From contig CAIMKX010000038.1 of assembly GCA_903842025.1 (NCBI GenBank), positions 1-50,524 of the forward strand: a stretch of 50,524 nt of DNA, written 5' to 3'. This DNA comes from an uncultured bacterium (GTDB lineage Bacteria > Patescibacteriota > Minisyncoccia > Phycocordibacterales > PALSA-1337). Below are positions 14,488 through 24,137 of the stretch, piece after piece. The notes under the pieces were generated by a model. It was not told where the DNA came from, searched no databases, and saw only the letters and a list, made by a program, of their open reading frames with translations. Numbering within the stretch: the first letter of the stretch is position 1; every line of letters starts with the position of its first letter. The position numbers and the translations under genes were made by a program.

Positions 14488-14860
14488 GACAAGTGAAAAA
14501 TCTAAGGTCACGGCTTTAGGTAATTTGTCCGCAACCCATACGGTGAGAGTCCGGATGATTACGGTTGTCCAGAGAGTATCATATGGTTGACCAAAAAATC
14601 AGAGACAGTTGGTGTGAGAAGCTATGTGATGTATTAAGATCACAGATTCGATACAGCCTGAGCGAAGCTATCGGCAGGCAGTGGCATGGACTGCTTCTCG
14701 CACAAGGCTCCGTTGGCAAGGTCAATGGCAACCGCAACGTTCCGTACCTCGACAGGAACGATTCCAAGCGCAACCTGAACCTCAATTGGTGGGACAATGA
14801 CTGGAATGCCAACTACCGTTTCCTCGGCGTTCGCAACTACGTCCGTTTCTCCTGAGGCAT
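14488..14860 (+). ncRNA. putative DGR template RNA 1 (boundaries approximate)
   Basis: Promoter-like TTGTGC-16-TATAAT at 14454..14481; leader motif CCATACGGTGAGAG; GCCTG/CAGGC hairpin; contains TR1. Confidence 0.65.
14703..14836 (+). other. DGR template repeat TR1
   Basis: AAY-rich template (GKVNGNRNVPYLDRNDSKRNLNLNWWDNDWNANY) with adenine-only differences to VR1. Confidence 0.95.
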
Positions 14861-15298
14861 TGCTTCGGGAGTTTTGTTTAATAATTGCCGTTTCCAACCA
14901 CCAAGCATCTTGCCAATCTCCGCAAATCGTTCGGCCAAGTGAGCATATTTTTTATTGTCTAAAGCTTTGATTTCCCAGGAAAGCTGCAAGAGTAGCTTGA
15001 CCAAATCGATTTTGGATATGCTCTTGTTCAGGAACAATCGTTTTTCTTCGGTATGCGTATAACTGGCGAGAAAGGCGTATTCTATTGCTTCAAGAAAAAG
15101 AATATCGATCTTGGATCCGATGGTATAGCGATTAGTCTTGGGAAAACTCGAAAGGTAAGCTTGCCAGATATTGTAAGTATCCTTCAATTTTAGTACTACG
15201 GGAATAAGCCTAGTTTGTTGCGTTTTTACTCTCTCTCTCTCTCTCTCTCTCTTAAATTCCGCTTCAACTTTATTAATTTCAGTTTCTGAATTATTCAT
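14837..15298 (-). CDS. avd: Avd-like DGR accessory protein (four-helix bundle)
   Basis: W-x-SFPKTNRYTIGSKIDILFLEAIEYAF...LQLSWEIKALDNKKYAHLAERFAEIGKMLGGWKRQ; located between TR and RT; start taken as MNNSETEINK. Confidence 0.82.
   Translation of the reverse strand: MNNSETEINKVEAEFKRERERERVKTQQTRLIPVVLKLKDTYNIWQAYLSSFPKTNRYTIGSKIDILFLEAIEYAFLASYTHTEEKRLFLNKSISKIDLVKLLLQLSWEIKALDNKKYAHLAERFAEIGKMLGGWKRQLLNKTPEAMPQEKRT
15229..15252. repeat. dinucleotide microsatellite (CT)12
   Basis: 24 nt of uninterrupted CT, in frame inside avd (KRERERERV). Confidence 0.97.
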
Positions 15299-16274
15299 GA
15301 TGTACAACCGTATCATTTCTCTGGAAAATTTGCTAGAGGCGTGGAAGGAATTCCTGAAAGGAAAGCGGAACAAGAAAGATGTCCAGGAATTCCAGTATCG
15401 GCTTTCCGACAACATTTTTGCGCTGCATAACGACCTTAAAAACAAAACGTATGTCCATGGAGGCTATTATGCTTTCAATATCTCCGATCCAAAGCCTAGG
15501 AATATTCATAAGGCAAGCGTGAGAGACAGGCTTCTTCATCATGCGCTTTATCGCAAGCTCTGTCAGCTATTTGATGTGCATTTCATTCATGATTCATATT
15601 CATGCCGGAAGTTTCGAGGAACGCACCGCGCGTTGAAATGTTTCAGGGAATTTGCACTCAAAGCCAGTAATAATAATATGAAAACATTATGGATTCTGAA
15701 ATGTGATATCAAGAAGTTTTTCGCATCAGTTGATCAAGCAATTCTTATGGAAATCCTGAAGAAATACATTCCCGATTTCGATGTAATTGATCTAATAAAT
15801 CGAGTAGTCGATAGCTTCAGTAGTACGGCGATTGGAAAGGGACTACCATTAGGAAATCTGACATCTCAACTTCTGGTCAATGTTTATATGAACGAATTCG
15901 ACCAATTCATGAAGCATAAAATCAAAGCCAAATATTATATCCGCTATGCCGATGATTTTGTTATCTTCTCAAGAGACAAGAATTGGCTTTGTAATATCAT
16001 TACGCAAATTTCGGATTTTCTCTGGAATAAACTCAGGCTTCAACTTCATCCAAACAAGGTGTCCGTAAGCACTATTGCTTCCGGTGTCGATTATCTCGGC
16101 TGGGTTCATTTCCCGGATCATCGGATATTGCGAACGGTAACAAAAAAGAGGATGTTCAAAAGATTGAACAAGTCTGAAGGCAAGCCAGAAATAGTTCAAT
16201 CTTATCTGGGGATGCTGGGCCATGGGAATGGTAGAAAATTAAAAGACAAAATTTTGAAAACCTGGCCTATCTGA
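15297..16274 (+). CDS. DGR reverse transcriptase
   Basis: LPLGNLTSQ (RT4), YIRYADDFVIFS catalytic motif, ILKCDIKKFFASVD; next to TR and avd. Confidence 0.95.
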   Translation: MMYNRIISLENLLEAWKEFLKGKRNKKDVQEFQYRLSDNIFALHNDLKNKTYVHGGYYAFNISDPKPRNIHKASVRDRLLHHALYRKLCQLFDVHFIHDSYSCRKFRGTHRALKCFREFALKASNNNMKTLWILKCDIKKFFASVDQAILMEILKKYIPDFDVIDLINRVVDSFSSTAIGKGLPLGNLTSQLLVNVYMNEFDQFMKHKIKAKYYIRYADDFVIFSRDKNWLCNIITQISDFLWNKLRLQLHPNKVSVSTIASGVDYLGWVHFPDHRILRTVTKKRMFKRLNKSEGKPEIVQSYLGMLGHGNGRKLKDKILKTWPI

Positions 16275-16310: not shown

Positions 16311-18110
16311 ATGCCCTACACAATTTCCCGCCCACTCAAAGACAAAGAACGCAAAGAATTAAGTGAATTCTCTGACTTAACTGCTCATTTATTATTTCAT
16401 CGCGGCATTTCTGATAATGAAACCGCCCACGAATTCATCTCGCCCGACTACGAGAACGGCAATCATGATCCTTTTCTCTTGAAAGACGCGCAAAAGGCAG
16501 CCGCGCGGGTCATTCAAGCCATAAAAAATGATGAGAGAATAGTGGTCTATGCCGACTATGATGCCGATGGTATACCGGGCGCGGCGATTTTCAATGATTT
16601 TTTCAAGAGGATCGGATTCAAGAATTACACAATCTACATTCCACATCGCCACAATGAAGGTTTTGGCTTGAATGAAGAGGCGGTTGTCCGTCTGGCTACG
16701 AACGAGAAAGTTAAGCTTATTATTACTGTCGACTGCGGCATTACCGATGTCGTTCCGGCTGACAAAGCGGCTGAATTGGGCGTGGATCTGATCATCACCG
16801 ACCATCACGAACCGCCACCCATTCTGCCAAAAGCTTTTGCCATCATCGACCATAAACAGGCTGACTGTAATTATCCAGACAAGAATATCTGCGGCTCGGC
16901 TGTGGCTTTCAAGTTTATTCAAGCAATCTTGAAGATTGACCGCTTTGGATTGAAAGAAGGCCATGAGAAGTGGTTGCTGGACCTGGTCGGCATCGCGACC
17001 ATGTCCGACATGGTCCCGCTCATCGGTGAAAATCGGATCTTCGCTAGCTACGGACTCTCAGTTTTGCGCAAAAGTCCCCGCAAAGGGATTATGCAACTTC
17101 TCCGAAAATTAAATATTGACCAGCGTTTTCTCACCGAAGATGATGTAGCTTTTATGCTCACGCCTCGGATCAACGCCGCTTCGCGAATGGGTTTGCCCAT
17201 GGACGCTTTCAGTCTCTTGGCCGCTGACAATGACGTTGATGCCAATTTCTTTGCTGACCATCTCGATAAGATCAATAATGAGCGGAAGGGAATCGTCGCT
17301 TCTCTAGTTAAAGAAGTGAAAAAGATTGTCCATGAGCGTCATTCGGAGAATATGCCTAGGGTAATTGTTCTGGGTAATCCTCTTTGGCGTCCATCTCTTC
17401 TTGGTCTAGTGGCCAATTCCTGCGCCGAAGAATTCAACAGGCCAGTTTTCCTCTGGGGCCGCGATGGTGACAATAGCATCAAAGGTTCCTGTCGCTCCGA
17501 AGGTAAGACCAGTGTCGTCGCTCTTATGAGGAATGTCCCCGCCGGCATCTTCTCCCAATTTGGCGGCCACCATCATTCCGGCGGCTTCGCCGTGTCCAAT
17601 GAGCAGATCCATTATTTGGAATTGAAGCTCAACAAAGCGGCCGAGATCATTCAAAATCTAGCCACCGAATTGGAAAATGCCAAGGTCGGCGCCCCGAATT
17701 TAGAAGACGCCGAAGATTTAAACGAGCCGAATTCAGATAAGATTGACGCCGAGCTGACTGTTGATGCTGTTGATGATGAACTTTCAAAAGAAATCAATAA
17801 GTTGGCACCCTTTGGTGTGGGTAATCCGAAGCCGGTTTTCCTATTCAAAGGCGTGATCCCCATGACCAGTCGGACTTTTGGGAAGGGGAATGATCATGTC
17901 GAACTAACTTTTAAGAAAAGTAACGGTAATAAGCTGTCAGCGATTTGTTTCTTTGGAGCAGGGAAGGAGTGGGTCAAGAAGACTTTGAATAAGAAAGCCA
18001 TTGATTTGATCGCTTCGGTGGAAAAGTCGATGTATAGGGGCAGGGCGGAACTACGACTTAGAATAGTGGATGTGGTGAAGAGGGGGAAAGATGATAGTAT
18101 GATGGTTTAA
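16311..18110 (+). CDS. recJ: single-stranded-DNA-specific exonuclease RecJ
   Basis: VYADYDADGIPGAAI, TVDCGITD, ITDHHEPP, QFGGHHHSGGFAV (DHH/DHHA1). Confidence 0.95.
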   Translation: MPYTISRPLKDKERKELSEFSDLTAHLLFHRGISDNETAHEFISPDYENGNHDPFLLKDAQKAAARVIQAIKNDERIVVYADYDADGIPGAAIFNDFFKRIGFKNYTIYIPHRHNEGFGLNEEAVVRLATNEKVKLIITVDCGITDVVPADKAAELGVDLIITDHHEPPPILPKAFAIIDHKQADCNYPDKNICGSAVAFKFIQAILKIDRFGLKEGHEKWLLDLVGIATMSDMVPLIGENRIFASYGLSVLRKSPRKGIMQLLRKLNIDQRFLTEDDVAFMLTPRINAASRMGLPMDAFSLLAADNDVDANFFADHLDKINNERKGIVASLVKEVKKIVHERHSENMPRVIVLGNPLWRPSLLGLVANSCAEEFNRPVFLWGRDGDNSIKGSCRSEGKTSVVALMRNVPAGIFSQFGGHHHSGGFAVSNEQIHYLELKLNKAAEIIQNLATELENAKVGAPNLEDAEDLNEPNSDKIDAELTVDAVDDELSKEINKLAPFGVGNPKPVFLFKGVIPMTSRTFGKGNDHVELTFKKSNGNKLSAICFFGAGKEWVKKTLNKKAIDLIASVEKSMYRGRAELRLRIVDVVKRGKDDSMMV

Positions 18111-19341: not shown

Positions 19342-19350
19342 ATTCACTAT

Positions 19351-19492
19351 GTCTGACATGGTAATGAGGTAATATCATGTTGATAAGCGGCAGTCTTACC
19401 ATGTCAGACATGGTATTTTATCCGGATTTGAACAAAATTTTATCGTTTCTTGAACAAGATTTTATCAGGATTTTATCTCGCTTTGATAAAAT
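19351..19492 (+). promoter_or_regulatory. duplicated regulatory module upstream of comEC
   Basis: Palindrome TACCATGTCAGACATGGTA (19397..19415), ATTTTATC at 19415, 19437, 19459, 19470 and inverted GATAAAAT at 19485. Confidence 0.7.
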
Positions 19493-19495
19493 AGA

Positions 19496-19520
19496 TTCCT
19501 TGAGGTCTCTCCTCAAGGAA
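19496..19520 (+). promoter_or_regulatory. hairpin covering the comEC Shine-Dalgarno
   Basis: TTCCTTGAGG-TCTCT-CCTCAAGGAA; the 3' arm contains AAGGAA, 4 nt before ATG 19525. Confidence 0.65.
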
Positions 19521-19524
19521 CATC

Positions 19525-21174
19525 ATGACCAAAAGAGTTTTCATTTTTTGGAGCGTTTTCGTGGCAGCCGCCATATTCAGATTGTGGCAGTCTTTTTACG
19601 TGGTTCTGCCTGATATTGGTGATTGTTTGAAGCAAAATGTCAGTGGAATAGGGACAATTGTAGTTGAACCGGAAAGAAAAGAATCGGGGCAAATTTTGGT
19701 TGTTTCGGTTGAGGGTTTGAATATTTCAAATGGATCAATGAGTTGTCCGGCTGATTTTCTTCTCAGAATGAAAACAAAGTTGTATCCGCGGTTTTCTTAC
19801 GAGGATCGCGTGACATTCAAGGGAAAACTGTTGCAGCCGGTCAATTTTGACAGCGGGTCGGACCGTTCTTTTGATTACAAGGGCTATTTGGCCAAAGACG
19901 ACATTTACTATGAAATGAAAAGTGCGGTAGTGGGATTACAAAAAGACTCTGATGTTGTCATTCCCGCGAACACTGTGTCATTCCCGCGAAGGTCATTCGA
20001 CTCTGAGAGTCTCAGACTCGATGAGCGGGAATCCAGTGTTGAATCGCTGGCGCCATATTCTGCGGCACTGGATTCCCGCTTTCGCGGGAATGACAAACAA
20101 AACAATTCTCTGCAATACAATGAAGGCGGGAATGACAAACAAGAAACCAGCCAGCAAGATAACAAGCAGAACGCCAGTAACTTAATAGAAAATGCTGTTA
20201 ATTCAATTACCTCATATCTTTATCAAATCAAACGCCAACTTGTAACTGTTCTTGAAAAAACCTTGGGCGAACCGCATGCGGCCTTGGCGGCCGGGCTGGT
20301 GGTGGGGGAGAAGGCCGCTTTGGGCAAGGATTTGCTCAATGATTTTCGCATTGTCGGTTTGATTCATATTGTCGTTCTTTCTGGTTACAACATCACGATT
20401 GTCGGCGACGCTTTGCGAAAGCTTCTCTCGTTTCTGCCAAGAGTCTGGGGAATAACGATCGGCGGAATGGGCATTTCACTTTTCGGAATTTTGGTCGGCG
20501 GAGGTGCTACCGTCGTCCGTTCCTGCTTCATGGCCGGAGTGGCCCTTTCCGCCGATCTTATTCGGCGTGATTACAGCGTCATCCGAGCTTTGGTCTTTGC
20601 CGGTCTCATTATGATAATTCAAAATCCATTGATTCTCCTTCATGATCCATCGTTTCAGCTTTCGTTCTTGGCTACGTTGGGTCTAATACTTCTAGCCAGT
20701 CCAATAGAAAAGCGCTTGGGATTTATTCCTGAAAAATTTGGCCTGCGCGGCATAGTCGCTTCGACCCTAGCCACCCAAATCTTCGTCTCGCCGTTCATTC
20801 TCTACATGATGGGTCAGATTTCCATCATTGGAATGGTGGTCAATATTTTGGTTCTGCCTTTTATTCCCGTCACAATGCTATTTGTCTCGCTCACAGGTTT
20901 TCTGGGAATGATTTACTTGCCGTTGGGTCAAATCGTGGCCTGGGGGACTTATCTCTTACTTTCCTATGAATTATTCATGGTCGGACATTTTGCCCGCCTA
21001 CCATTTGCCGCCGTCCATATTCCCGCATTTTCTGGCTGGTGGGTGGTGGGGTTCTATCTAGTCTTCATGATCAGTACAATTCTTATTAGGTCAAAAAAAG
21101 CGCTTGTTTCTGTCATTCCCGCGAAAGCGGGAATCCAGTGTAATGTAAAATGTAAATCTCAAAATGAAAAATGA
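19525..21174 (+). CDS. comEC: ComEC/Rec2 competence membrane channel (without a fused metallo-beta-lactamase domain)
   Basis: GLVVGEKAALGKDLLNDFRIVGLIHIVVLSGYNITIV competence motif, multiple TM. Confidence 0.9.
   Translation: MTKRVFIFWSVFVAAAIFRLWQSFYVVLPDIGDCLKQNVSGIGTIVVEPERKESGQILVVSVEGLNISNGSMSCPADFLLRMKTKLYPRFSYEDRVTFKGKLLQPVNFDSGSDRSFDYKGYLAKDDIYYEMKSAVVGLQKDSDVVIPANTVSFPRRSFDSESLRLDERESSVESLAPYSAALDSRFRGNDKQNNSLQYNEGGNDKQETSQQDNKQNASNLIENAVNSITSYLYQIKRQLVTVLEKTLGEPHAALAAGLVVGEKAALGKDLLNDFRIVGLIHIVVLSGYNITIVGDALRKLLSFLPRVWGITIGGMGISLFGILVGGGATVVRSCFMAGVALSADLIRRDYSVIRALVFAGLIMIIQNPLILLHDPSFQLSFLATLGLILLASPIEKRLGFIPEKFGLRGIVASTLATQIFVSPFILYMMGQISIIGMVVNILVLPFIPVTMLFVSLTGFLGMIYLPLGQIVAWGTYLLLSYELFMVGHFARLPFAAVHIPAFSGWWVVGFYLVFMISTILIRSKKALVSVIPAKAGIQCNVKCKSQNEK
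19957..20095. repeat. REP-like palindromic repeats inside comEC
   Basis: TCATTCCCGCGAA... and CACTGGATTCCCGCTTTCGCGGGAATGACA, translated as LDSRFRGNDKQ. Confidence 0.85.
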
Positions 21175-21933: not shown

Positions 21934-21994
21934 TTTTGTTGATTTAGAGATTAATAACGCATTAACTATACGCTATTTACGGATTTGGGGTGCG

Positions 21995-22148
21995 ACCATG
22001 TCTGACATGGTAACGAGGTTATATCATGTTGATAAGCGGCAGTCTTACCATGTCTGACATGGTATTTTATCTGGATTTTAACAAAATTTTATCAATCCTT
22101 GAAAGAGATTTTATCGTTTCTTGAACAAGATTTTATCAGGATTTTATC
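21995..22148 (+). promoter_or_regulatory. second copy of the comEC-type regulatory module
   Basis: Palindromes 21995..22011 and 22046..22064; ATTTTATC at 22064, 22086, 22108, 22130, 22141. Confidence 0.7.
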
Positions 22149-22169
22149 TCTGGCGAGTATGATGGTGTT

Positions 22170-23099
22170 ATGGCAATCAATAACATATCAAAACCATTTG
22201 TCATTGCGGCGGCGGCAACGGCCTTAAGCACCGGTCTCGCTGGTTACGTTTGGCAAGAAGAACACCGCCCGCTGATTCTAGAGATCTACGTTTTTGCTTT
22301 GCCAAATGGTAGATCGATGTTCATCCGAACTCCAGAGGATAAAAGGATTCTTATAGATGGCGGTGGTAACTCCGACATTATTCGGGAAATCACGAAAATT
22401 CTGCCGTTTTATTCGAGACGAATCGACGCGATTCTGGCCACAAACTCTGAAGGAAAGAACGTTTCCGGGCTTATTGATGTTATCGAGAGGTACAAAGTGG
22501 ATACTTCATATTTGCCTGCAGTGACATTGGAAAGCCTAGGTCTGTCCTCTTCGACTGACATGATCTACTCAACTTTGGTCGATACTATTAATCGTCAAAA
22601 TATTGAAATTCGCAAAGTTATTGCCGGCGATTCTATTATTCTTGACGATAAAGTCACGATAAAGCCTTTGTTTCCGGCCACACCAGATCGATTTGTCTAT
22701 TCCAAGGCCAGTGCGCCGGAAATTCTCTTTGATATTTCATTTGGAAAGACAGCGATAGTCTTTCTGGGCAATGGGTCAAATAAGATACAGAAGTTTTTGG
22801 CTTCAACGACGGCTCCGGCATTCACAGATTCAAGCGTACTGATAGTTTCGCACAGCGCTTTGCCGGCCAACATGTCCGCTCAGCTGATCGGTCAAATCAA
22901 ACCGGAATATCTTGTTTATTCAAAGGCCGAGAGCAATAAGCCAGTGGCGCCGCCGAAATCTTCAACTTCAAAGACAAAAAAGAAAGAGATCGTCGATCCT
23001 TTGGCTTATCTTGGAAATGAAAAGCGGTTTAATCTCAAAGAGAAGGGAACTGTGAAGATTACGTCCGATGGTGTTAAGGTTACGGTGGTTAGTGATTAG
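22170..23099 (+). CDS. ComEC-type metallo-beta-lactamase-fold protein
   Basis: FALPNGRSMFIRTPEDKRILIDGGGNSDIIREITKILPFYSRRIDAILAT resembles the ComEC C-terminal MBL domain. Confidence 0.75.
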   Translation: MAINNISKPFVIAAAATALSTGLAGYVWQEEHRPLILEIYVFALPNGRSMFIRTPEDKRILIDGGGNSDIIREITKILPFYSRRIDAILATNSEGKNVSGLIDVIERYKVDTSYLPAVTLESLGLSSSTDMIYSTLVDTINRQNIEIRKVIAGDSIILDDKVTIKPLFPATPDRFVYSKASAPEILFDISFGKTAIVFLGNGSNKIQKFLASTTAPAFTDSSVLIVSHSALPANMSAQLIGQIKPEYLVYSKAESNKPVAPPKSSTSKTKKKEIVDPLAYLGNEKRFNLKEKGTVKITSDGVKVTVVSD

Positions 23100-23399: not shown

Positions 23400-23484
23400 G
23401 TCATTCCCGCGAAAGCGGGAATCTAGTGTCTTGAAAGATATACTTGCAAATCAACACTGGATTCCCGCTTTCGCGGGAATGACA
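23400..23484. repeat. REP-pair element
   Basis: TCATTCCCGCGAAAGCGGGAATCTAGTGT ... CAACACTGGATTCCCGCTTTCGCGGGAATGAC. Confidence 0.88.
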
Positions 23485-23528
23485 AGAAAAAACTTTGCAC
23501 TTTGCACTTTTCACTGTAAACTTGGCTC

Positions 23529-24137
23529 ATGATAACCGTCATTTCAATCGTAATCCTCATATTCTCGATCATTATCCACGAAGTCTCGCATGGCTTTATG
23601 GCTGATTGGCTTGGTGATCCGACGGCTCGATTGCAGGGTCGTTTGACGTTAAATCCTATCAAGCATATTGATCCGGTTGGCTCTATTATAGTGCCGCTCA
23701 TCACCTCGATGGCCGGTTTTACCTTCGGCTGGGCCAAACCGGTCGAATTCAATCCTTATAATCTTAGAAACAGACGACAAGGCGAATTTTTGATCGCCAT
23801 GGCGGGACCGCTGTCCAATCTGCTCATTGCTTTGATCTTTGGAACGATTATTAGATTTACGGTCGCTTCCGCTTCAGTAATGACGCCGTTTCTTGAGGTT
23901 TGCTCTTACATAGTCATCATAAACATCGTCCTGGCCATATTCAATCTTGTACCTTTGCCGCCATTGGATGGTTCCAAGCTATTATTGGCCTGGCTGCCAA
24001 ACCAATATGGCCAGTTTCGAACAATGTTGGAAAGATATGCGCCGATATTTGTCATAATCGTCATCTTCTTTTTATGGGATTTTGTTTCACCAGTGATACC
24101 GTGGGTTTTTCGATTGATTACAGGAGTTTCTGTCTAA
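23529..24137 (+). CDS. site-2 protease-like M50 family membrane peptidase
   Basis: IIIHEVSHGFMADWLGDPTA (HExxH), FNLVPLPPLDGSKLL. Confidence 0.9.
   Translation: MITVISIVILIFSIIIHEVSHGFMADWLGDPTARLQGRLTLNPIKHIDPVGSIIVPLITSMAGFTFGWAKPVEFNPYNLRNRRQGEFLIAMAGPLSNLLIALIFGTIIRFTVASASVMTPFLEVCSYIVIINIVLAIFNLVPLPPLDGSKLLLAWLPNQYGQFRTMLERYAPIFVIIVIFFLWDFVSPVIPWVFRLITGVSV

Follow-up and report, generated by a model that had tools for sequence, protein, structure and literature searches.

We consider it probable that an array of short direct repeats upstream of comEC is an activator site of a competence and type IV pilus regulon and that it is bound by a response regulator of the OmpR/PhoB family, for which the genome offers a candidate. 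From sequence we infer that this regulator would bind the array and activate the promoters, and that competence would be the regulated state. The array lies in a stretch of 50,524 nt (the window), which is contig C38 of a 0.95-Mb genome that is 99% complete (G000). Named relatives are Parcubacteria/Paceibacterota, including one Candidatus Taylorbacteria and many uncultured MAGs.

The 11-bp box array and the palindromes beside it

The features of the window on which the analysis rests are as follows.

19345..19415, no strand: module A, a palindrome doublet (CACTATGTCTGACATGGTA ... TACCATGTCAGACATGGTA) adjoining the comEC array and separate from it
19415..19477, plus strand: comEC operator array (putative), strong and weak boxes with an 11-bp period throughout
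19487..19492, plus strand: TAAAAT, the comEC -10 hexamer (TANNNT), 9 nt past the last box
19496..19520, plus strand: 10-bp inverted repeat TTCCTTGAGG/CCTCAAGGAA within the leader of comEC
19525..21174, plus strand: comEC, channel domain PF03772, N-terminal DUF4131
21994..22064, no strand: module A again, directly adjoining the second array
22064..22148, plus strand: second array, strong boxes at 22064, 22086, 22108, 22130 and 22141, weak boxes between
22158..22163, plus strand: -10 hexamer TATGAT of the second array, 9 nt past the last box and 6 nt from the start codon
22170..23099, plus strand: ComEC metallo-beta-lactamase-like C-terminal domain as a separate protein (profile and fold search)

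An earlier note on this DNA had described boxes at 19415, 19437, 19459 and 19470, spaced 22, 22 and 11 nt, and this is what the sequence contains: four strong boxes of the form ATTTTATC, a word of which the window holds 13 copies where 3.9 +/- 1.9 would be expected, with none of 100 shuffles reaching as many. The note took the spacing for two helical turns and one. The distances are exact, but a weaker box (ATTTGAAC at 19426, TCTTGAAC at 19448) stands exactly midway between the strong boxes that are 22 nt apart, and the repeat unit is therefore 11 bp, with strong and weak boxes alternating. Among all arrays the weak boxes take the forms TCTTGAAC, ATTTGAAC and ATTTTAAC (NYTTGAAC or ATTTGAAC type). 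The note's inverted GATAAAAT is likewise present at 19485, but it overlaps the -10 hexamer TAAAAT and has no counterpart at the other ten arrays; we rejected it as an inverted operator half-site, and it is best read as part of the -10 element.

Scanning the genome for ATTTTATCNNNATTTTATC returned 11 exact copies, each in the form ATTTTATCAGGATTTTATC, and 23 matches when up to two mismatches were allowed, compared to 3 for the reversed control. All 11 array copies sit at promoter positions and point toward a gene or an RNA, and every one ends at its 3′ side in ATTTTATCAGG-ATTTTATC, followed by 9 nt and then TANNNT. The -35 hexamer TTGACA is absent from these promoters, and the last boxes stand in its place. 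The -10 of the second array ends 6 nt before the start codon of the gene at 22170, which makes a leaderless mRNA likely for this gene. The same arrangement (22158-22170 at the ComEC beta-lactamase domain gene) was seen at comM and pilB (L017, L011). The promoter layouts suggest that several array promoters give leaderless mRNAs.

The earlier note had joined the boxes to a 19-nt palindrome and a degenerate upstream copy. Both palindromes are there (19397-19415 and 19345-19363), but palindromes and boxes turned out to be two separate things, each occurring without the other. Module A consists of two 19-nt palindromes of the form TACCATGTCWGACATGGTA at a distance of 52 nt, and doublets throughout the genome are spaced 52-54 nt. 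About 25 palindrome sites (at most one mismatch) are dispersed over the genome as inverted doublets, in or near gene 3′ ends and in both orientations; a variant lies at 16997, inside ORF 16311-18110 of the window, and palindromes with the related core GGTCNGACC are present in relatives. Most palindromes have no array, and most of the 11 arrays have no palindrome. Module A looks like a REP/REPIN-like family, unrelated to the array and beside it by chance; the likeness consists of short palindromes in inverted doublets that are dispersed and mainly extragenic. RAYT genes were seen in relatives G001 and G011.

These observations bear on the possibility that palindromes and boxes together are a single mobile repeat or MITE inserted in front of comEC. 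The dispersal of the doublets in both orientations and the fact that both window arrays abut palindromes speak for such an element. However, arrays without palindromes and palindromes without arrays both exist, every array faces a gene or RNA and has a -10 9 nt beyond its last box, and drifted arrays are kept at orthologous promoters in many species. We rejected the combined mobile module, which we regard as extremely improbable: a mobile-repeat reading holds for module A only and is contradicted for the array. Many copies at arbitrary sites, which the earlier note had named as the sign of a mobile repeat, are what we found for the palindrome and not for the array. Since it is a dispersed repeat, the palindrome part should leave the module.

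Targets and conservation of the arrays

The protein targets in the genome are comEC, the ComEC beta-lactamase-like protein, pilB followed by pilC, a type IV pilin and comM (YifB), together with an 806-aa surface protein and an 86-aa protein, both without a known competence role. Another array follows tatD at a contig end; relatives have the order tatD-array-rpsF-ssb, and because the contig ends there, rpsF-ssb is assigned as a target in this genome by synteny. Among the targets are also two tRNA-like RNAs, and one array directly follows the gene of an OmpR-type response regulator. As a rough estimate, six of eight protein targets would be reached by chance with a probability of ∼1e-8 if 25 of ∼950 genes serve competence or pili. 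The genome search that the earlier note had proposed yielded 11 arrays with mostly DNA-uptake and pilus targets. A competence regulon is marked by one site shared by genes for DNA uptake, pili and ssDNA processing, as is seen here, and an operator of a competence regulator, as the note had supposed, is well supported as the identity of the array, with the palindromes left out.

The protein encoded at 22170..23099 had no match in a Pfam/NCBIfam search. A PDB profile search led to ComEC (E = 7.5e-25), and its AlphaFold model matches 9ic4, the ComEC beta-lactamase domain (E = 3.8e-19). In many genomes of the order, this stand-alone domain is encoded on the same contig as comEC, no more than a few kb from it. 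Repeats translating as SFPRKRESS (CATTCCCGCGAA... type) occur in the window at 19980-20185, inside comEC, and at 23423-23752, and comEC of most relatives is gapped across this stretch.

Relative G001 has 14 arrays, with dprA and an IS200-like (RAYT) transposase as added targets and, by eye only, a sedolisin-like protein as well as a small protein with an RmuC-like one behind it. The transposase gene stands directly behind its competence-type array in G001 (L070, C58), and in G011 (L086, C53) such a gene is the second in order behind an array. A conserved protein of ∼130-155 aa was observed behind an array in three relatives (L083, L099, L101); a Pfam search of a 110-aa piece gave no match, and by eye it is possibly PemK/MazF-like.

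In congeners the boxes drift to TTCATC, TTGAAC, TTGAGC and similar forms, while the 11-bp period, the orientation and the -10 are retained. For the sequence before comEC, the mean self-identity over about 30 congeners has its peaks at lags of 11, 22 and 33 (z = 13.6, 12.5 and 6.6); excursions at other lags (e.g., 3) are smaller. The same period was found in congeners upstream of comM (z = 10.9, 9.4 and 4.3) and of the pilin gene (z = 14.3, 8.3 and 7.6), and the pilin array is missing in some of them, e.g., G018, G025 and G032. With a 22-nt PWM trained on the genus, 90 of the 98 training promoters are found to contain a site.

An array of A/T-rich boxes in helical phase right upstream of a -10 could also be part of the promoter itself (phased A/T tracts that bend the DNA, in the manner of an UP element) or an alternative-sigma site that works without a dedicated activator. 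We consider this very unlikely, since the -10 is TATAAT-like and a specific core, TTnA, is retained beyond mere A/T content. All boxes of relative G009 have changed to the core GTTATC/GTAATC, which points to sequence-specific reading.

A candidate regulator

The response regulator whose gene adjoins one array (G000:C6:15469-16164, minus strand; OmpR/PhoB family) has a Response_reg domain (E = 2.7e-22) and a winged-helix Trans_reg_C domain (E = 9.9e-20). Its score against the PhoB equivalog TIGR02154 is 153.9 bits, far below the cut-off of 296.2, and it is therefore not PhoB proper. An ortholog is present in all 19 congeners that are at least 90% complete, and an array with a conserved ncRNA follows the regulator stop codon in nearly all congeners examined. 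No histidine kinase gene adjoins the regulator in this genome or in most others; one (HisKA + HATPase_c) comes after it in G020 and, by eye, another in G050.

At the order level, orthologs and paralogs were separated on other FastTree branches and on identity, because the branch with the genome's own C20 paralog was absurd. PWM scores of the comEC, comM and pilin promoters are higher in the 8 order-level genomes with an ortholog than in the 15 without (p = 9e-5 when tested per genome; p = 3e-4 when tested per promoter), and the pilin co-occurs with the ortholog (Fisher p = 0.008). The recognition helix NTVEAHIRNLRKK (HIRNLR) is nearly fixed, and it reads NTVEAHMARLRKK (HMARLR) in G009 and NTIEAHIAHLRKK (HIAHLR) in its sister G013. 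Box position 3 is G in 9/9 boxes of G009 and T in essentially all others, and A at box position 5 occurs in 7/25 boxes of G009 and G013 versus 4/431 elsewhere (p = 2e-7). The co-change falls in one clade and therefore counts as one event; it is the pattern that a binding partner would be expected to show.

The arrays may instead be a real competence and pilus operator that another DNA-binding protein reads, with the regulator gene a mere neighbor. In keeping with this, the array lies downstream of the regulator gene and drives the ncRNA rather than the regulator, and G041 has a box pair before comEC and no detected regulator ortholog. The linkage in nearly all congeners examined, the co-occurrence across the order and the helix/box co-change argue against it, as does the presence of only two OmpR-type regulators in the genome at E ≤ 1e-20. 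We judge another reader rather unlikely, and the response regulator is the best candidate and the likely reader of the arrays. Its molecules would bind head-to-tail on one DNA face, one per 11 bp, to boxes that are strong and weak in turn, and the last boxes would substitute for a -35 and recruit RNA polymerase to the -10 fixed 9 nt downstream.

This layout recalls the Pho regulon, in which direct repeats bound by an OmpR/PhoB-type regulator (here a candidate) also take the place of the -35. The PHO box consists of two 7-nt repeats with a 4-nt spacer (PMC3131613). In the E. coli phoA sequence we confirmed that the repeat starts are 11 nt apart; from the start of the proximal repeat to the phoA -10 the distance is 17 nt. 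The arrays have the same 11-nt spacing and the same 17 nt (8 + 9). As in class II promoters of the pho-box kind, their tandem repeats of 11 bp occupy the -35 place, and the spacing to a -10 of the sigma-70 type is constant. Pho-box units can occur several in tandem. In contrast to the Pho regulon, the core here is TTTATC/TTGAAC/TTCATC and not CTGTCAT, the arrays are longer, and the targets are competence and pilus genes instead of phosphate genes.

In the ComK regulon of Bacillus subtilis, and likewise with ComE-ComX, Sxy-CRP and TfoX, one operator type coordinates comEC, pilus or pilin genes, comM or dprA, and ssb; ssb/rpsF are linked to ComK-type competence regulons. The array regulon is alike in using a single operator type for the DNA-uptake set, but it differs from all of these in its operator, in the family of its candidate regulator and in its ncRNA targets. 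LytTR response regulators of the ComE/AgrA type act on direct repeats upstream of competence genes, with a period of ∼21 bp and a different DNA-binding domain, whereas the candidate here has a Trans_reg_C domain and the arrays an 11-bp period.

RNAs of the putative regulon and wider setting

The array-driven RNAs are listed below.

L105 1214-1388, minus strand (orthologous loci L106-L133): ncRNA after the response-regulator gene, with a 5′ hairpin
L018 2326-2399, minus strand: tRNA-like RNA of this genome
L019 2581-2653, plus strand: tRNA-like RNA of this genome

The 5′ hairpin of the ncRNA shows compensatory changes in 6/7 pairs, and 91.6% of cells are paired compared to at most 55% when the pairing is slid. 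The loop reads GUCGA without exception in an alignment of 24 sequences, for whose selection this motif was itself used. No Rfam family fits this RNA at gathering scores, and in G043, which belongs to another family, the regulator is followed by a hairpin similar to this one.

Six copies of the tRNA-like RNA were found in four genomes (in relatives L364, L365, L368 and L386), array-driven in several relatives. Their acceptor, GGGCCCG/CGGGUCC, has a G3-U70-type wobble, and in Rfam they resemble the tRNA-like domain of tmRNA below threshold. The region of the "anticodon" arm can pair without mismatch, over 11-18 nt, with a stretch a short way downstream that has its own TTGACA/TATAxT-like promoter and a terminator after it. 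The downstream stretch may encode an antisense partner of the tRNA-like RNA.

With somewhat less than an even chance of being right, we propose a previously undescribed competence circuit of Paceibacteria, in which an orphan PhoB-like regulator would oligomerize on long 11-bp arrays to turn on DNA uptake and pili, while the same signal would turn on the GUCGA ncRNA and alanine-type tRNA-like RNAs with a pairing small RNA. Patescibacteria account for much of bacterial diversity. Transformation that depends on ComEC was demonstrated for Saccharibacteria in a paper that names no regulator (PMC10633639), and we found no competence regulator for Patescibacteria in the literature searched. If our reading is true, the response regulator would be the first candidate competence regulator for the group to which this Parcubacterium belongs. 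With an operator and a candidate regulator in hand, and with targets that include unexpected RNAs, competence control becomes directly testable, and the array flags unknown genes that likely act in DNA uptake or surface attachment.

Elsewhere in the window, an Rfam scan of which returned no family at gathering scores, a reverse transcriptase gene (RVT_1) lies beside a divergent bAvd-like gene at 14837-16274, and the pair looks like a diversity-generating retroelement.
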